The notes under the pieces were generated by a model that was given only the letters and a program-made list of their open reading frames with translations, did no database searches and had not been told where the DNA came from. From positions 1-64,000 of IMG/VR virus record IMGVR_UViG_3300033064_001806: a stretch of 64,000 nt of DNA; one strand, written 5' to 3'. This DNA comes from a virus. Each line of letters opens with the position of its first letter. Within the stretch, counting starts at the first letter, position 1. The translations under genes and the position numbers were made by a program. Below are positions 891-53,701 of the stretch, piece after piece.

Positions 891-922
891 TTTGGTTTAT
901 ACCTATAAAAAGTGTATATTTG
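891..922 (+). promoter_or_regulatory. Bacteroidota-type promoter (TTTG-N20-TATATTTG)
   Basis: TTTG at 891-894 and TATATTTG at 915-922 are separated by exactly 20 bp. This matches the -33 TTTG / -7 TAnnTTTG consensus of the Bacteroidota primary sigma factor. It sits in the only gap between the RCC1 gene and the glycosyltransferase cassette, 33 nt before the ATG at 956, and would drive that cassette. Confidence 0.65.
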
Positions 923-9533: not shown

Positions 9534-9923
9534 ATGAAATATATATTAGTTTTTTTATTTGCAACTGCGGTTATGTTTTCTAAGGAAAAAGAAACTATTA
9601 AAAAAATAGATTCTGTTGTTTGCTTCAACAAAATAGAAATTACAATTCTTGCTAATAAAATACAGACATTAAAGGATTCAATTGATTATTTGAAATTAAT
9701 AGTAAGTGAACAAGACACTTTAATTGATTTTCACAAAACAAAAATTAATTGGTATAATTTAATGCTATCGAATCGCCAAAAAGCATTTGATGCTTGTAGA
9801 ATTCAATCCGATACACTACAAAGAACTGTGGATGAATTACAACCACGTTGGTATGATAATAAATTATTGTGGTTTATGAGTGGAGCAGCAACGGTGATTT
9901 CAATAATATTGGTTACTAAATGA
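9534..9923 (+). CDS. Membrane coiled-coil protein with signal-like N-terminus and C-terminal TM
   Basis: A 129-residue protein. Residues 1-16 are hydrophobic ('YILVFLFATAVMF'), residues 25-100 are predicted helical with Leu/Ile spacing ('ILANKIQTLKDSIDYLKLIV'), and residues 110-127 form a C-terminal transmembrane helix ('LWFMSGAATVISIILV'). No lipobox cysteine follows the N-terminal segment, so it is not a clear outer-membrane spanin. It overlaps the terminase gene by 4 bp. It may act with the preceding gene in lysis or in the envelope. Low certainty. Confidence 0.4.
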   Translation: MKYILVFLFATAVMFSKEKETIKKIDSVVCFNKIEITILANKIQTLKDSIDYLKLIVSEQDTLIDFHKTKINWYNLMLSNRQKAFDACRIQSDTLQRTVDELQPRWYDNKLLWFMSGAATVISIILVTK

Positions 9924-11512
9924 GTGGTATTCCAAAGAATCTTAAAGAAATTGTAAAAGACGAGTATGCAAAATGTGCTAAAAATCCTGCGTACTTTATG
10001 AAACGATACGCAAAGATTCAGCATCCAACTCGTGGCAAAATGTTATTTGAATTATACCCATTCCAAGAAGATGTATTACATGAATTTAATGAACACCGTT
10101 ACAACATTGTACTCAAGTCAAGGCAGTTGGGTATTTCTACGTTAATCGCTGGATATTCGCTTTGGATGATGTTATTTAATAATGACAAAAATATTCTTGT
10201 TATTGCTACAAAACAAGATACTGCAAAAAACTTGGTAACTAAAGTTAGAGTTATGTATGATAATTTACCAAGTTGGTTAAAAACAGGAGTTCAAGAAGAT
10301 AATAAATTATCACTCCGTTTTAATAATGGTTCACAAATTAAAGCAGTATCGGCTGCATCGGACTCTGGACGTTCTGAAGCGTTGTCACTTTTGGTGATAG
10401 ATGAGGCAGCGTTTATTGAAGAGATTGAACCAATATGGGCTTCCGCACAACAAACTCTTTCAACAGGTGGCTCTGCGATTATAAATTCCACTCCAAATGG
10501 TGTTGGTAATTTTTATCACAAAAAATGGGTAGACGCTAAATTAGGTCAGGGTGGATTTAATCCAATAGAATTATTGTGGCAACTCCATCCCGAACGTGAT
10601 CAAGAATGGCGAGATGAACAAGATATACTACTTGGTCCAAACATGGCTAAGCAAGAATGTGATGGGAACTTCTTAGCTTCTGGACGTGCAGTTGTTGATG
10701 GGGAATTGGTACAATGGTATGAGCAAACACACGCAATGGATCCACTTGAAAAACGTGGTGGTGAAGAAGCATTATGGATTTGGAAATATCCAGACCCAAC
10801 AAGAGATTATATTGTAGTTGCTGACGTTGCACGTGGTGACGGAAACGATTACTCCGCATTCCATGTAATTGATGTTGAAAGTTTAGAACAAGTTGCTGAG
10901 TATAAAGGTAAGTTGGATACAAAATCTTATGGTAATACATTAGTTTCAATAGCAACTGAATATAATGACGCATTACTTGTTGTTGAAAATGCGAATGTTG
11001 GTTGGGCAGCAATTCAACAAATAATTGACAGAAATTATGGAAATCTATATTATACGTACCGTGAAGATGGTTACGTAGACCCATCGGTACAATTACCAAA
11101 AGGTTATGACTTAAAATTAAAGCAAAATATGGTTCCTGGATTTACAACGTCATCGAAAACTCGCCCACTCTTAATTTCTAAATTGGAAACATACTTCAGA
11201 GAAAGGGGTCCAATAGTTCATTCAAGACGGTTAATTGAAGAATTATATGTATTCATTTGGAATGGACCAAAAGCAGAAGCACAGCGTGGTTATAATGACG
11301 ATTTAGTAATGTCTTTTGCAATTGGTCTTTGGGTAAGGGACACTGCTATGAAATTAAGAAAAGAAGGTATAGAACAAACTCGTTTAAGTTTGAATTATAT
11401 TAATAAATCAGCAACTCCACATAAAACATCATATTCTTTCAATGACAACAATAATGGTTGGAGTATGAAAGTAAATAATACAGACGAAGATTTAACTTGG
11501 TTAATTAAATAG
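9920..11512 (+). CDS. gp17: Terminase large subunit (T4 gp17-like)
   Basis: A 530-residue DNA-packaging ATPase/nuclease. The N-terminal ATPase has the variant Walker A 'SRQLGIST' at 67-74, Walker B 'LLVIDEAAF' at 157-165 with the catalytic Glu, and motif III 'STPNGVGN' near 191. The C-terminal RNase H-like nuclease starts with 'VADVARGDGNDYSAF' near 301, has 'VVENANVG' near 355, and an acidic 'YNDDLVMS' near 463. Length is close to the usual 550-610 of the family. The motor docks on the portal encoded next. The start overlaps the upstream stop (ATGA). Confidence 0.97.
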   Translation: MSGIPKNLKEIVKDEYAKCAKNPAYFMKRYAKIQHPTRGKMLFELYPFQEDVLHEFNEHRYNIVLKSRQLGISTLIAGYSLWMMLFNNDKNILVIATKQDTAKNLVTKVRVMYDNLPSWLKTGVQEDNKLSLRFNNGSQIKAVSAASDSGRSEALSLLVIDEAAFIEEIEPIWASAQQTLSTGGSAIINSTPNGVGNFYHKKWVDAKLGQGGFNPIELLWQLHPERDQEWRDEQDILLGPNMAKQECDGNFLASGRAVVDGELVQWYEQTHAMDPLEKRGGEEALWIWKYPDPTRDYIVVADVARGDGNDYSAFHVIDVESLEQVAEYKGKLDTKSYGNTLVSIATEYNDALLVVENANVGWAAIQQIIDRNYGNLYYTYREDGYVDPSVQLPKGYDLKLKQNMVPGFTTSSKTRPLLISKLETYFRERGPIVHSRRLIEELYVFIWNGPKAEAQRGYNDDLVMSFAIGLWVRDTAMKLRKEGIEQTRLSLNYINKSATPHKTSYSFNDNNNGWSMKVNNTDEDLTWLIK

Positions 11513-14653: not shown

Positions 14654-15337
14654 ATGGATGTAAACGCTTTCATACATAAAATAAAAGAATCCGAAGAATT
14701 CAAACAGTTTCAAGAAGAACTTGATGAAATGAGTGTAACTAGTATGGTCGCTGGATATGAAACTCCAAAGGCATTTGCTGCTAATGAAGATGATTTTGAA
14801 GAACATAATAAAGAAACTGCGGAAGTTTACGGATATAAACTTGTTCCAAAGACTAAAAAAAGAAATTATGAATCTGTATATAAACAAACTATGCGTTTAT
14901 TAAATGAAGCATCTGTTTCGGTATTTGCATCCGATGGTGATGAATTCAAAGATGGATTTGTAAAAGATGAAGACACTTGGAGAAAATACGTATCAACAAA
15001 AGCAGAAGCTTCTGGATATAAAATAGTTAATGAAAAGAATGTTTTTGGTAAAACTCCAGAAAAATTAAAATCTGTAAAAGAATATTTAAGTGAAGCATCA
15101 TATAAAGAATTCCGTAAAGATGAAACAAGAACTACAAATAGAAAAATAAATGATTCTATTAAACGCATAAATAGAATTATGTATGAAGTTGAGAAAGTAG
15201 TAGAACATGCTTCACGATTAAAGACTGAAATGGCAGTTGATCAAAGAACACTTTGGGGGGAATCACGTAATCGTCTTGTAAAAATATCAGAACGAATTAA
15301 TAGAATTAGTAAAAAAATACACGAATTAGGTGCTTAA
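14654..15337 (+). CDS. Prohead core/internal polyprotein with repeated modules
   Basis: A 227-residue acidic/charged protein. Two related modules follow each other: 'FAANEDDFEE...AEVYGYKLV' (residues 41-64) and 'FASDGDEFKD...AEASGYKIV' (91-125). Each is followed by a segment ending in a perfect prohead-protease site: 'RLLNEAS' (81-87, L-N-E/A) and 'EYLSEAS' (143-149, L-S-E/A). Residues 160-227 form a helical domain. The neighbour is the protease gene, whose stop-start spacing is 1 bp. I infer a core protein cut into peptides during head maturation. Family not named. Confidence 0.6.
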   Translation: MDVNAFIHKIKESEEFKQFQEELDEMSVTSMVAGYETPKAFAANEDDFEEHNKETAEVYGYKLVPKTKKRNYESVYKQTMRLLNEASVSVFASDGDEFKDGFVKDEDTWRKYVSTKAEASGYKIVNEKNVFGKTPEKLKSVKEYLSEASYKEFRKDETRTTNRKINDSIKRINRIMYEVEKVVEHASRLKTEMAVDQRTLWGESRNRLVKISERINRISKKIHELGA

Positions 15338-15338
15338 A

Positions 15339-16001
15339 ATGAAACAATTACTCGTAGATACTATACTATTTAGTGCAAGTCCAAGAATGATTGCAGAATC
15401 TGAAAAGAAAAACGATGGTAAAGTTATAGTTTCGGGTGTTTTACAAAGAGCAGAAGTAAAAAATCAAAATGGTAGAGTTTACCCAAAAAAGATTTTAATG
15501 CGTGAAGTGAAAAAATATGCTGAAACAAATATTAAAGAAAATAGAGCGTTGGGTGAGTTGGATCATCCAGATTCTTCTGTTATTAATTTAAGAAATGTTT
15601 CTCATAATGTATTGAGTGTAGATTGGAAAGGCAATGATGTAATTGGTACAGTAGAGATACTTCCAACCCCATCTGGCAATATTCTAAAACAACTGCTTGG
15701 TGCAGGAATTCGCCTTGGTATTTCTTCTCGTGGTTTAGGTTCGGTTGAAGAAATAAGTGAAAATACAGTTGAAGTACAAGAGGACTTTGAATTAATAGGT
15801 TGGGACTTTGTATCGAATCCATCCACACAAGGTGCATTCATGTATGACGATGGTCATCAGAATGAAGGTTTAATTAGAGAGGGTGTTAGTTTAGAAACTA
15901 TTTCTAAGATTGATCCTAAAATTCAACGTATTCATAATAACATTACAAATATTATTTGTGAAATTGGAAATATTTGTGAATGTATATTTGGAGATAAATG
16001 A
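15339..16001 (+). CDS. gp21: Prohead maturation protease (T4 gp21-like)
   Basis: A 220-residue serine protease that degrades the scaffold and trims capsid proteins. 'VVKNQNGRVYP'-type strand ('EVKNQNGRVYPKKIL', 39-53), catalytic His in 'GELDHPDSS' (His76) and Ser in 'LGISSRGLGSV' (Ser129/130) follow the assemblin-like fold of gp21. Residues 17-21 (MIAE/S) would be a self-cleavage site of the (L/I)-x-E type. ATG 15339 is preferred to GTG 15330. It lies between the putative core polyprotein and the DUF3008-like gene, and overlaps the latter by 4 bp. Confidence 0.93.
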   Translation: MKQLLVDTILFSASPRMIAESEKKNDGKVIVSGVLQRAEVKNQNGRVYPKKILMREVKKYAETNIKENRALGELDHPDSSVINLRNVSHNVLSVDWKGNDVIGTVEILPTPSGNILKQLLGAGIRLGISSRGLGSVEEISENTVEVQEDFELIGWDFVSNPSTQGAFMYDDGHQNEGLIREGVSLETISKIDPKIQRIHNNITNIICEIGNICECIFGDK

Positions 16002-16603
16002 TGCCTGCACTTTCACAAAAACAACAAAAATTAATGGGACTTGCTTTAGCAGTTAAACGTGGTCAAATTCCTGCTTCAAAAGTTAATAAATCTATTGAAC
16101 AACTTGCAAAATCAATGACTGAGAAAGATATTGAAAAGTTTGCAGCAACAAAACACAAAGGACTTCCAAAAAAAGTTGGTGAAAGTAAAACAACATTAAC
16201 AAAAGAAGAATTAAATCAATTAGTTGCCGATGCTGTTCAAGAAGTAATGAAAGAGAGATTTAGTACAAAAGTTCTTACATCAGAACAAAAAAGAATGTAT
16301 ATAGAATCAATCGGTAGATACAATGAATATCGTGCAGTAGTTCATCGTTCAAAACAACTACCCGCAGTTGTATCTGAAATTAAAAGAATGGTTGAGTTTG
16401 CAAGTAAAAACATGGTTGAAGAATCTGGTGATTGGTTTGAAGGTGTTTCTCATAGAAGAAGTTCAAAGCAGTTAAAAGAATCTGTGAAAGTTTTTGAACA
16501 AACAACACAAAAGATTGTAAAACTACAAAGAACTTTGGAATCAATTTACGAGAATATAGGTAAAAATCTCAGTAAATTCTATGAGATAAAAGAGATTAAT
16601 TAA
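15998..16603 (+). CDS. DUF3008-like protein with helical C-terminus
   Basis: A 201-residue protein. Residues 3-66 follow the DUF3008 pattern seen in phages: 'QKQQKLMGLALAVKRGQ', 'KSMTEKDIEKFAATKHKGLP'. Residues 70-200 are helical; 'VVSEIKRMVEFAS' followed by a Trp and a second helix pair resembles the C-terminal domain of the gene at 14654, suggesting a shared ancestry (tentative). ATG 15998 and 16001 are adjacent alternatives. Probably a prohead component; function unknown. Confidence 0.6.
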   Translation: MMPALSQKQQKLMGLALAVKRGQIPASKVNKSIEQLAKSMTEKDIEKFAATKHKGLPKKVGESKTTLTKEELNQLVADAVQEVMKERFSTKVLTSEQKRMYIESIGRYNEYRAVVHRSKQLPAVVSEIKRMVEFASKNMVEESGDWFEGVSHRRSSKQLKESVKVFEQTTQKIVKLQRTLESIYENIGKNLSKFYEIKEIN

Positions 16604-16621
16604 CAATAAGGAAAGAAAGTT

Positions 16622-16849
16622 ATGAATGATAGAGTATATACAAACTCTAATTCGGCTCATGTAAAAGTAAAAAATACAGGTATGCCGGTTGATGTTATGA
16701 TTAAAATATTCAAACGTAAAGTAAAAGAAGCAGGTATTCTTGAAGAATATAAAAATCGTATGGAATATATTAAACCATCAAAGAAAAAAGCTGAAAAAAG
16801 AAACGCTGCTATTAGAAGACAGCGAAAATTAGACGTAGAAAATATCTAA
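16622..16849 (+). CDS. rpsU: Ribosomal protein bS21-like protein
   Basis: A 75-residue, basic protein. Residues 28-65 match bS21: 'IFKRKVKEAGILEEYKNR' then 'MEYIKPSKKKAEKRNAAIRR', against the bS21 pattern FKRxxxxxGIlxExxxRxxYxKPSxxRxRK. bS21 sits near the anti-Shine-Dalgarno end of 16S rRNA. Phage-encoded bS21 is known from other large phages. Here it lies inside the head cassette, with its own AAGGA ribosome-binding site, 20 bp before the ADP-ribosyltransferase gene. After IKPS it has a Lys/Arg-rich tail where Flavobacterium bS21, as I recall, has a Tyr that helps hide the anti-Shine-Dalgarno. Confidence 0.8.
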   Translation: MNDRVYTNSNSAHVKVKNTGMPVDVMIKIFKRKVKEAGILEEYKNRMEYIKPSKKKAEKRNAAIRRQRKLDVENI

Positions 16850-16868: not shown

Positions 16869-17930
16869 ATGACCTCGCATTATATCGAAGAAATTATTCG
16901 TGAAGAAATACGGAAAATCATTGAAGATATGGAAAGAAATTCTTTTTTATCCGAGGAAGACGAGGAAGCGCCCGCAGCAGAGGAAACTCCAAAGGAAGAA
17001 CCAAAAGAGGAAACTCCAAAGGAAGAACCAAAAGAGGAAGAGAAAAAATCAGCGGATGATACTGCTTCGAGTGAAGAAGGTGGTGATGAAAAAAAAGAAG
17101 AAGAACCACCAGCAGAAGAAGAATCACCAACAGGTTTAAAATCAGTTGAATTGACAAATCCAGTTGAAGTTCAAAACTTAAAAAAGAAATCAACGAGTAT
17201 TGGTCCAGAAACTCAAGGTAAACTTCTATCATTTGAGTACGAAGAAATTTTAGATGTTTACGATCAGGCTGTTCAAAAAGCAGAAGATGAAGACTCAAAA
17301 AAGAAAATTGGTTTAATAACTAAAAAAATCCAAAACATTTCAATTCTAAAACATAGTATAATTAGTAAAAAACCATTGGACAGGGAAACAACAATGGCTT
17401 TAGATTATTACTACAAACACACTTCTGATATAAATGAATTAGTTCGCTCTGATATTCAATTAGCAACTAAAAAGCAAATTGAAAAGCAATTAAGACTTGG
17501 CAAACCAAAAGAAAAAGAAAGTAAAAGAACTCCAGTATTTACTGATGCCATACAAACGTTCACCGTTAGCAGTTTAGACTTTGCATTCAGAGAAGAAATG
17601 CAACGTTTAGATTTTAATTTAGTTGTATATCGTTCAATAGAAACACCAAATGTTTTACAGCATTTTTTGGATGCGGGTACATGGATTGATAAGGGCTATG
17701 TAACTACTTCCCTAAATCCACTTATAGTTGAAAGTTTGAATAAGAAACGATTACCACTTTTTGAAATGTTAATTCCAGCAGGTTCATCGGTACTCACATT
17801 ACCATGTAAAGTAAATGATTACTGCCATGAAACAGAAGTAACCTTACCGAGAAATTGTAAATTTACAATCCACGGATATAATGAAACACGAAACATATAC
17901 AAAGTATTAGTGGAGCAAAACAATGCCTGA
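16869..17930 (+). CDS. Alt-like ADP-ribosyltransferase, probably packaged in head
   Basis: A 353-residue protein. Residues 1-29 are helical and end in 'FLSE' (L-S-E/E), a possible prohead-protease site. Residues 30-90 are a Glu/Pro/Lys low-complexity linker. Residues 220-350 form an R-S-E type ADP-ribosyltransferase: Arg255 in 'VVYRSIETP', 'GYVTTSLNP' (276-284) as the STS motif, 'FEMLIPAGSSVL', and the catalytic E-x-E as 'HETEVTLPR' (Glu321/Glu323). T4 Alt is such an enzyme; it is packaged, cut by gp21 and modifies host RNA polymerase. The same role is inferred here from position and the cleavage motif; the target is unknown. AGGAG precedes the ATG. Confidence 0.8.
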   Translation: MTSHYIEEIIREEIRKIIEDMERNSFLSEEDEEAPAAEETPKEEPKEETPKEEPKEEEKKSADDTASSEEGGDEKKEEEPPAEEESPTGLKSVELTNPVEVQNLKKKSTSIGPETQGKLLSFEYEEILDVYDQAVQKAEDEDSKKKIGLITKKIQNISILKHSIISKKPLDRETTMALDYYYKHTSDINELVRSDIQLATKKQIEKQLRLGKPKEKESKRTPVFTDAIQTFTVSSLDFAFREEMQRLDFNLVVYRSIETPNVLQHFLDAGTWIDKGYVTTSLNPLIVESLNKKRLPLFEMLIPAGSSVLTLPCKVNDYCHETEVTLPRNCKFTIHGYNETRNIYKVLVEQNNA

Positions 17931-19241: not shown

Positions 19242-20879
19242 ATGAATGTACAATCTTTATTAAATGCTTCTGGAAGTCCCCACAAGCAACTTATCAAAGA
19301 AAACCGTCAAATAGTTAACAAATGGTCAAAGACAGGTTTACTTGATAACTTAAACAACGACTATGAAAAGAACTCTATTGCAGTTCTTTTAGAAAACCAA
19401 GCAAAACAACTTATAGATGAATCAAACCGTACAGGTACAGCAGCTGGCTCAGAAGAATGGGCAGGTGTTGCACTTCCATTGGTTCGCAGAATTTTCTCTG
19501 AAATTGCTGCGAAAGATTTTGTGTCTGTTCAACCAATGAACTTACCTTCTGGTCTTGTATTCTTCTTAGATTTCAAATATGGTACAGCACAACCTGGATT
19601 CACAGCCGCTCAAGGTAAAGATACACAGACTGACTCTGTATTTGGTGTAACAGGTGCAGAAGCAAAAGACGCTGATGCTTCAGGTGGTCTTTATGGTGCA
19701 GGTCGTTTTGGTTATTCAATCAATGAAGCAAATATCAGTTTAGCAAAAGCAGCTACATTATCTGCAACAGAATTCGTAACTGGTTCTGTAACACACGCAA
19801 CACCATCATTATTCCAACACGATACAGAATTCAAAGACGCTTACTCTGGATCTCTTGTAGCTGGCGGTATTATGACAATTACAATTAATTCAAGTTCTCT
19901 TGTAAATGAAGATTTTGACGCAGTTCGTGCTTTCAAAATTAGTGGTTCAACTATCTTCAGCTATTTTCCACAATACACATTCACATCAAACAATAATTCA
20001 ACAATTACATTCGTTGTTTCTGCATCAGCAGCTCCTGCAACAATCGGTATTGCATACGAAAAGCAACCTACAGCAACAACTCGTGGTGACTTTGAAGATG
20101 GTTTAGCAGGTTCAAGTCTTGATATTCCAGAAATCAACTTAGAATTACGTTCAGAATCCATTGTTGCTAAAACACGTAAGTTGAAAGCAGTATGGACACC
20201 TGAATTCGCACAAGATTTGAATGCATATCACTCAATCGATGCAGAAGCTGAATTAACTTCTATGTTGTCTGAGTATATCTCTCAAGAAATTGACTTAGAA
20301 ATTCTTGATATGTTGATTAAGAATGCACAAACAACAGAAAGATGGTCAGCACGTATCGGTCGGGCTTATAACTCTGCTACAAGTGCATTTGCAGATTATT
20401 CAACAGCACAAGGTGCAGCATCTGCATATAACCAACAAACTTGGTTCCAAACATTAGGTACAAAGATTCAAAAAGTATCCAACATCATTCATCAGAAAAC
20501 ATTACGTGGTGGTGCAAACTTCTTAGTATGTTCTCCACAAGTTGCTACAATTCTTGAATCTATGCCTGGCTATGCAGTTGATGGCGAAGGTATGAAATTC
20601 GCAATGGGTGTTCAAAAAGTTGGTCAATTAAATGGCCGTATCACAGTTTACAAGAACCCATATATGTTAGAAAACCAAATGTTAGTTGGTTTCCGTGGAA
20701 CACAATTCCTCGAAACTGGCGCGGTTTATGCACCATATATTCCACTTGTAATGACACCATTGGTTTACGATCCAACTAACTTCACACCAAGAAAAGGTGT
20801 GTTGACACGCTATGCGAAGAAAATTGTTCGTCCTGAATTCTACGGTTTGATTCAAATCGAGTCTTTAGGTGACATCTAG
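19242..20879 (+). CDS. gp23: Major capsid protein (T4 gp23-like)
   Basis: A 545-residue HK97-fold shell protein. Recognisable blocks are 'LPLVRRIFSEIAAKDFVSVQPM' (shortened; residues 79-99), 'FFLDFKYGT' near 107, 'TRKLKAVWTPEFAQDL' near 310, and the conserved C-terminus with 'YAPYIPLVMTPLVYDP' and 'RYAKKIVRPEFYGLIQI'. The likely maturation cut is after Glu60 ('LIDE/SNRTG'), close to position 65 in T4. AGGAAG precedes the ATG, and a strong GAAA-loop terminator follows, which closes the head operon. Confidence 0.97.
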   Translation: MNVQSLLNASGSPHKQLIKENRQIVNKWSKTGLLDNLNNDYEKNSIAVLLENQAKQLIDESNRTGTAAGSEEWAGVALPLVRRIFSEIAAKDFVSVQPMNLPSGLVFFLDFKYGTAQPGFTAAQGKDTQTDSVFGVTGAEAKDADASGGLYGAGRFGYSINEANISLAKAATLSATEFVTGSVTHATPSLFQHDTEFKDAYSGSLVAGGIMTITINSSSLVNEDFDAVRAFKISGSTIFSYFPQYTFTSNNNSTITFVVSASAAPATIGIAYEKQPTATTRGDFEDGLAGSSLDIPEINLELRSESIVAKTRKLKAVWTPEFAQDLNAYHSIDAEAELTSMLSEYISQEIDLEILDMLIKNAQTTERWSARIGRAYNSATSAFADYSTAQGAASAYNQQTWFQTLGTKIQKVSNIIHQKTLRGGANFLVCSPQVATILESMPGYAVDGEGMKFAMGVQKVGQLNGRITVYKNPYMLENQMLVGFRGTQFLETGAVYAPYIPLVMTPLVYDPTNFTPRKGVLTRYAKKIVRPEFYGLIQIESLGDI

Positions 20880-31035: not shown

Positions 31036-31524
31036 ATGGCTGAATTACTTGACCCCACGGAAATATTTTTTACCCCGTTTGAGCCGAAGTTACAAAATAG
31101 ATTTATTTTGTACATCGAGGGTGTTCCTGCTTATTTAGTGAAAGGTGCTGGTAGACCTAACATTAGCTTTAACCCTATCACGCTCGATCACATTAATATT
31201 AAACGTAAAGTAAAAGGTAAGGGCGAATGGCAAGATATTTCTATTAAATTATACGATCCAATCGTTCCTTCTGCTGCACAAGCGGTAATGGAATGGGTTC
31301 GTTTATCACATGAATCTGTAACTGGTCGTGATGGTTATTCTGACTTCTACAAGAAAGATTTAACACTTCATGTACTTGGTCCAGTTGGTGATAAGATTGA
31401 AGAATGGACTATTAAAGGTGCATTTATCACCGCTACTACATTTGGTGATATGGATTGGGCAAACGACGCATTTGTTGAGATTGGACTCACATTAGCATAC
31501 GATTACGCTATCCTTCAATACTAA
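31036..31524 (+). CDS. gp19: Tail tube protein (T4 gp19-like)
   Basis: A 162-residue tube subunit, close to T4 gp19 (163). It has the typical 'FEPKLQNRFILYIEGVPAYL' N-terminal strand, 'KVKGKGEWQDISIKLYDPI' in the middle, and a C-terminal 'ATTFGDMDWANDAFVEIGLT' segment. Located right after the sheath, with GGAG before its ATG. A very strong terminator follows. Confidence 0.95.
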   Translation: MAELLDPTEIFFTPFEPKLQNRFILYIEGVPAYLVKGAGRPNISFNPITLDHINIKRKVKGKGEWQDISIKLYDPIVPSAAQAVMEWVRLSHESVTGRDGYSDFYKKDLTLHVLGPVGDKIEEWTIKGAFITATTFGDMDWANDAFVEIGLTLAYDYAILQY

Positions 31525-52838: not shown

Positions 52839-52870
52839 TTTGAATATTAAACATTAAAACATTATATTTG
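52839..52870 (+). promoter_or_regulatory. Bacteroidota-type promoter upstream of replication genes
   Basis: TTTG at 52839-52842 and TATATTTG at 52863-52870 with exactly 20 bp between, identical in architecture to the promoter at 891-922. It would drive the SSB-UvsX-nuclease-helicase operon with host polymerase early in infection. Confidence 0.7.
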
Positions 52871-52930: not shown

Positions 52931-53701
52931 ATGGCTATCAATCTTGATGCAATTAAAAATCGTTTGTCTTCATTAAAAAACACAAACAATCGTGTTTCAA
53001 ACATTTGGAAACCAGAACCAGGTGAACATCAAATCCGAATTGTTCCTTATGTTCACAACTTAGAAAATCCATTCATTGACCTTTACTTTCATTACAACAT
53101 AGGAAAGCGGTCTATTCTTTCTCCTGTAACATATGGTCGCCCTGACCCTATTCTTGAGTTTGCTGAGAAGTTAAAACAAACAGGTGACAAAGAAGATTGG
53201 CTAATGGGAAGAAAGCTCGAACCAAAAATGAGAACATATTTACCAGTTATTATCCGTGGACAAGAATCTGAGGGTGTAAAGTTTTGGGGATTTGGTAAAA
53301 TGATTTATGAAGAACTTTTAACATTTTTTGCTGATGAAGATTACGGTGATTTATCCGATCCTAAAAATGGGCGTGATATTGTAGTTACTGTTAAGTCAGC
53401 AGAAGAAATCGGTAAGTCTTATGCAGAAACATCTATTCGTGTTAAACCAAAACAAACACCACTTACAGAAAATGCTGCGGTTCTTGAGAAAGTTAAACAG
53501 CAACCAAAAATCAATGAACTTTATCCAGAACCAACTTATGATGAATTAAAATCCCAATTACAAACTTGGATGGGAACTACACACGAAGATGTTGTAAAAA
53601 GTTCTACAAACAACACATATGGTAAAACCAGTAATTCAGAAGAACATACAAAAGCGGTAACTTCTTCAACAGTTGCTTCTTCTTTCGATGACTTATTTTA
53701 A
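52931..53701 (+). CDS. gp32: Single-stranded DNA-binding protein (T4 gp32-like)
   Basis: A 256-residue ssDNA-binding protein. 'IWKPEPGEHQIRIVPYVHN' followed by 'PFIDLYFHYNIG' is the entry to the gp32 OB-fold, 'VIIRGQESEGVKFWGFGKMI' and 'GRDIVVTV' continue it, and a Ser/Thr-rich linker leads to the acidic tip 'FDDLF'. It has a strong AAGGAG site. It heads the replication operon, as expected for a protein needed in quantity by UvsX and helicase. Confidence 0.92.
   Translation: MAINLDAIKNRLSSLKNTNNRVSNIWKPEPGEHQIRIVPYVHNLENPFIDLYFHYNIGKRSILSPVTYGRPDPILEFAEKLKQTGDKEDWLMGRKLEPKMRTYLPVIIRGQESEGVKFWGFGKMIYEELLTFFADEDYGDLSDPKNGRDIVVTVKSAEEIGKSYAETSIRVKPKQTPLTENAAVLEKVKQQPKINELYPEPTYDELKSQLQTWMGTTHEDVVKSSTNNTYGKTSNSEEHTKAVTSSTVASSFDDLF

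Follow-up and report, generated by a model that had tools for sequence, protein, structure and literature searches.

A phage-encoded ribosomal protein bS21 in a Shine-Dalgarno-rich T4-like phage probably matches its host rather than exposing a hidden anti-Shine-Dalgarno

Genomic context of the bS21 gene

The stretch of DNA analysed here (the window, 64,000 nucleotides) comprises bases 1-64000 of a virus record of 110,363 bp and belongs to a phage of lake type. It contains an open reading frame for a 75-aa protein that matches the Pfam model Ribosomal_S21 with 49.1 bits against a cut-off of 27, as well as the PHROG family "ribosomal protein S21", and the gene was found in 66 IMG/VR loci with identities of 72-100% (Table 1). 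The initial annotation as a phage-encoded bS21 is thus borne out; phage bS21 as such is already known (PMC6375957, PMC7162821, PMC9723584). The gene has a fixed slot in a large T4-like phage family, with the prohead protease gene on one side and the major capsid gene on the other, and a T4-like myovirus module with homologous terminase, gp23-like capsid, sheath and tube is present. All genes around bS21 are co-oriented with it on the + strand, and their order is identical in those IMG/VR loci that span the neighbours. Across relatives, bS21 is under purifying selection (median dN/dS 0.09).

Table 1. Features of the window discussed in the text
Feature	Position	Strand	Remarks
Second Bacteroidota-type promoter match, TTTGG...TATATTTG	891..922	+	
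Terminase large subunit	9920..11512	+	served to find the phage family
Prohead core protease (Peptidase_S77)	15330..16001	+	upstream edge of the bS21 slot; PF03420, 104 bits
DUF3008-containing protein	15998..16603	+	immediately 5' of bS21, clade-conserved; PF11450, 51 bits
Shine-Dalgarno of the bS21 gene, TAAGGA	16607..16612	+	AGGA kept in 23/23 relatives tested
bS21 (rpsU-like), 75 aa	16622..16849	+	PF01165, PHROG 21469; N-terminus ~11 residues longer than in F. johnsoniae bS21
Arg65 codon	16814..16816	+	gap-free alignment with Tyr54 of Flavobacterium johnsoniae bS21
353-aa protein	16869..17930	+	immediately 3' of bS21; mono-ADP-ribosyltransferase suggested by motifs only
Scaffold-like protein	18177	+	between the genes of the 353-aa protein and the major capsid protein
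Major capsid protein (gp23-like)	19242..20879	+	downstream edge of the slot; PHROG 138, E 5e-74
Bacteroidota-type promoter, TTTG-N20-TATATTTG	52839..52870	+	precedes the gp32-like SSB gene
gp32-like SSB gene	52931-53701	+	Shine-Dalgarno TAAGGAG

An alignment of 12-13 diverged homologues of the 353-aa protein encoded downstream of bS21 revealed conserved R, [T/S]TSLNP and ExE residues, and these motifs suggest a candidate mono-ADP-ribosyltransferase. Profile searches of Pfam, PHROG and PDB gave no match for this protein, and its AlphaFold model is poor (mean pLDDT 46). T4 has mono-ADP-ribosyltransferases, one of which modifies ribosomal protein S1.

Residue 54 was defined on the bS21 of F. johnsoniae (PDB 7JIL chain z), whose Tyr54 aligns without gaps with Arg65 of the phage protein; the earlier statement that the phage carries Lys/Arg where Flavobacterium has an aromatic residue is therefore correct. 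The window bS21 has no aromatic residue after Tyr49 and, with Arg65, lacks the one that marks the Bacteroidia-type, anti-Shine-Dalgarno-sequestering protein. Within the phage family, the Tyr54 position is non-aromatic (Arg, Lys or other) in 69/79 bS21 loci. In F. johnsoniae, the bS21 mutation Y54A or a C-terminal deletion leads to a rise in translation led by Shine-Dalgarno (SD) sequences (PMC9976891).

Shine-Dalgarno sequences and promoters

Genes were called on codon usage, with SDs given no weight, ATG starts were compared with internal in-frame ATGs, and a match of at least 4 nt was scored as an SD. Genome-wide, the window phage has an SD at 55/95 ATG starts (58%), compared with 74/640 internal ATGs (12%; Fisher p 3e-22), and SD positions peak at -13 to -10 relative to the start. 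These counts agree with the initial description of many genes with clear SDs, and those of the sites cited there that were checked are present: AAGGAG before 52931, AGGAG before 16869, 24631, 60093 and 60579, and GGAG before the tail tube gene at 31036; the SD of the sheath gene fits only if translation begins at a GTG ~12 nt into the called reading frame. The clade mates G005-G008 showed an SD at 224/346 starts. In the window and the rest of its genome (G000), 19% of starts have GTT immediately before the ATG (12% have AGTT-ATG), and GTT also precedes the bS21 gene in nearly all relatives. With a frequency of ~1-2% in the candidate host genomes G302 and G309, it is a phage-specific start context.

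The primary sigma factor of Flavobacterium has TAnnTTTG as its -7 box (PMC9723704). In the window phage, TTG-N19/20-TAnnTTTG was found in 7/45 upstream regions versus 0.1 expected, a control spacing of the same motif in 0/45, and TATAAT showed no excess in the upstream regions; four clade mates contain 5-13 matches each. These promoters place the host within Bacteroidota, and the previously proposed "probable Bacteroidota host" is upheld in this broad sense only. As the promoter is common to the phage and to genomes of the phylum with Arg at the Tyr54 position of bS21 (Arg54 type), it cannot separate classes. Genes immediately behind host-type promoters carry SDs in the window phage, in its clade mates and in the closest named phage, Mel-JY01 (PP395634.1). 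A repeated early-gene leader, GTAAGATTAAGAACAACCAA(TT)AAGGA-AAGTT-ATG, lies behind Bacteroidota-type promoters at 100-110 kb of G000 (L069-L070). Furthermore, a TATATTTAT-like motif is strongly enriched 5' of genes in the window and the rest of G000 and looks like a late promoter; related TATTTAT words occur in Mel-JY01 and in the Flavobacterium phage immuto (NC_055915.1).

Residue 54 and SD use across phages

We considered whether residue 54 decides SD use and rejected this idea, as all four combinations of residue and SD use occur among phages. Arg54 is found with SDs in the window phage and without them in phage G011 (SD at 10/114 starts). Tyr54 is found together with SDs in seven loci that carry bS21 in the same slot (L235, L250, L232, L234, L240, L243 and L245; SD use 45-82%), and G013, the only tested phage of this Tyr54, SD-rich set, is without Bacteroidota promoters. 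Finally, an aromatic residue is combined with SD-less genes in L164-L174. Eleven aromatic-type phage loci, with Tyr, Phe, His or Trp54 versions, have an SD at 0-6% of starts, and seven such loci pooled gave 1/102. SD use in phage genes thus neither requires a particular residue 54 nor follows from it. The start regions of the SD-less G011 (L162 and the rest of this genome) are A-rich.

Co-loss of bS21 and SD use within the phage family

Among the loci scorable for bS21, SD use in the 79 with the gene averages 59% for aromatic and 82% for non-aromatic bS21s and is at least 20% throughout, compared with a mean of 13% in the 54 loci in which the slot is covered and bS21 is missing. For six bS21-negative records including immuto, and also for G014, searches with the Pfam model (full-length for the six) still gave no bS21. 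In a tree of the major capsid protein with 74 representatives, the presence or absence of bS21 needs a single change, on a branch with support of 99, and the drop in SD use falls on this same branch. The clade that lost both includes a Flavobacterium phage, immuto, which pooled with its near relative G014 has an SD at 16/153 starts, below the internal background. As this is a single evolutionary event, the co-loss cannot by itself show cause; one host shift to SD-blind Flavobacteriia would be sufficient to produce it.

Cellular relatives and the likely host group

For comparison with cells, we used 297 genomes of the phylum that includes Nonlabens. When their bS21s were ranked by similarity to the phage protein, the top 30 all had Arg at the Tyr54 position, with an identity of only ~42-47% between the phage protein and the best of them. 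In the stretches of four low-GC Arg54 genomes analysed, 30-56% of starts have an SD, compared with 2-8% in Nonlabens and a Saprospirales MAG (pooled, 138/342 versus 5/134), and Arg54 genomes with low SD use also exist (G066, 12%; G194, 13%). A similar affinity was seen for the phage MetK: extra MetK copies in G218, G150 and G234, all with Arg54 bS21s, share 57-62% identity with it, and every other match listed among the 297 genomes reaches 52% at most. The Pelagibacter-bin phylum, of which 299 genomes were searched, gave no match of comparable level. Transfer of MetK between lineages may have occurred. An rpoB tree, read without L434 and L441 (extreme branches, probably due to a bad choice of reading frame), places G218, G234, G150 and G302 in one clade, apart from Nonlabens and Saprospirales.

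Comparing 20 kb of the phage with 396 genomes of the phylum for spacers yielded only low-complexity or PhoH-region matches; a 29/30-nt match in G358 was discounted because it lies outside any repeat array, and neither a spacer nor a prophage link from phage to host was found. Scans of GTDB contigs gave no close cellular relative for bS21 and few bins of mixed taxonomy for the terminase, and no host signal passed the threshold applied to asparagine synthase. An SD-rich "Nonlabens" contig (L076, NZ_RMVE01000006.1; 188 kb, from a Nonlabens xiamenensis assembly) was rejected as evidence on Bacteroidia, since it is 98.5% identical to cyanophage P-TIM40 over the 15 kb read and is probably contamination. 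From several weak to moderate lines of sequence evidence, we infer that the host most likely belongs to Bacteroidota, taken broadly, in a lineage outside the Flavobacteriales/Saprospirales branch, with an Arg54 bS21 and largely SD-led initiation.

Supply of a host-matched bS21 as the probable role

In the explanation that we consider probable, the phage makes a host-matched, Arg54-type bS21 and supplies it late to phage-loaded ribosomes of a host in which SDs are already read. The protein would be produced from the structural-gene cluster and would enter 30S subunits, to which host bS21 is only loosely bound, adding to the host protein or taking its place. The anti-SD would stay free, as it was before infection, and, while virions are being produced, the phage bS21 would maintain or promote SD-led initiation on phage mRNA. 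The late timing is deduced from gene position only: a gene within the structural cluster should affect ribosomes only late in infection, except if its product is packaged. The exact host and the preference for phage mRNA are likewise presumptive, and entry into ribosomes is suggested by analogy with the bS21 of Pelagibacter phage HTVC008M, which enters E. coli ribosomes (PMC6375957). Such ribosomes are only ~5% active in GFP synthesis (PMC6375957), so host compatibility may matter, and a need for it may fit the matching of phage and host bS21.

It had initially been proposed that the phage bS21, here with Arg65, replaces its host counterpart and thereby exposes a hidden anti-SD, in this case of a Bacteroidia host with Tyr54, redirecting ribosomes to SD-led phage messages. 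Several observations are in line with this proposal: the aromatic residue is absent from the phage protein, Y54A or C-terminal truncation has the described effect in F. johnsoniae (PMC9976891), the phage promoters are of Bacteroidota type, and bS21 and SD use vanish together within the family. However, SDs already stand behind host-type promoters, where they are presumably read before any bS21 is made, and the nearest cellular bS21 and MetK come from Arg54 lineages, with an SD at 30-56% of starts in the members measured. For this likely host group, SD use in the phage is no higher than in the host. In addition, residue 54 has no predictive value, given the SD-less Arg54 phage G011 and SD-rich Tyr54 loci such as L235 and L250. 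We therefore regard unmasking as quite improbable, and still less credit is given to its early variant, in which a non-aromatic bS21 would reach an SD-blind Bacteroidia host soon enough, for example in the head, for the anti-SD to be unmasked ahead of early translation. Delivery in the head is conceivable because the gene lies between protease and capsid genes, and, if true, an SD-only phage regime would operate inside an SD-blind cell.

A role in dosage or repair, with bS21 refilling 30S subunits that lack the host protein (for example through host or phage attack) while the choice of mRNA is unchanged, is unlikely, yet it has more in its favour: the phage protein is host-type at the functional site, it is under strong purifying selection, and phages of Tyr54 hosts carry host-like Tyr, Phe, His or Trp54 versions without using SDs. 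The joint disappearance of bS21 and SDs in one branch of the family, though a single event, is left unexplained by such a role. We also judge it improbable that the host lies outside Bacteroidota, with SD use and bS21 simply being host-like. This possibility arises from Mel-JY01 (terminase 64% and sheath 77% identical), the record of which names the cyanobacterium Microcystis elabens. However, TTG-N19/20-TAnnTTTG occurs in 13/71 upstream regions of Mel-JY01 versus 0.1 expected, with no TATAAT excess, its MetK again leads to Arg54 genomes of Bacteroidota (G218 and G150), and its annotated products include no photosynthesis gene. Given these Bacteroidota-type promoters, the recorded Microcystis host is doubtful, and the record would be accounted for if the algal culture contained a bystander bacterium. 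The combination of Bacteroidota-type promoters and a MetK of Bacteroidota affinity was noted in the Mel-JY01 loci L071 and L081-L083 (PP395634.1).

Comparison with known phages

The idea that phage bS21 redirects ribosomes has already been published (PMC9723584, PMC9976891). Because the phylum holds SD-blind lineages with an aromatic residue 54 as well as SD-using Arg54 lineages, the initiation mode of the host has to be settled before such redirection is deduced from a phage bS21. To the extent of the literature searched, the novelty lies in the family with SD use and non-aromatic bS21s, in the joint loss of bS21 and SD use and in the argument that the host regime accounts for it.

The huge phages described by Chen et al. 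2022 (PMC9723584) resemble the window phage in carrying bS21 in the neighbourhood of the genes for terminase, protease and capsid; their predicted hosts are Bacteroidota, and a late swap into host ribosomes was proposed. In contrast, their bS21s are encoded on the strand opposite to the structural genes and are aromatic at Tyr54, whereas that of the window is co-oriented and non-aromatic, and the window phage, with its SD-rich genome, belongs to a distinct family. HTVC008M (Mizuno et al. 2019, PMC6375957) is likewise a myovirus with a host-resembling bS21, but it infects an alphaproteobacterium, in which anti-SD sequestration is not at issue.

Mel-JY01 shares the gene order from terminase to tail and has a bS21 in the same slot that is 52% identical, with a non-aromatic Lys at the Tyr54 site and an SD at 74/164 starts (45%). 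It differs in its recorded cyanobacterial host, which its promoters do not support and which our analysis puts in question. Immuto belongs to the same T4-like family and has the same gene order and a terminase that is 54% identical, but there is no bS21 in its whole 160-kb record and SDs occur at 5% of starts. The family thus offers a natural comparison, in which one branch is without bS21 and SDs and its relatives have both, and with this contrast one can test whether the action of phage bS21 is confined to cells that read SDs.
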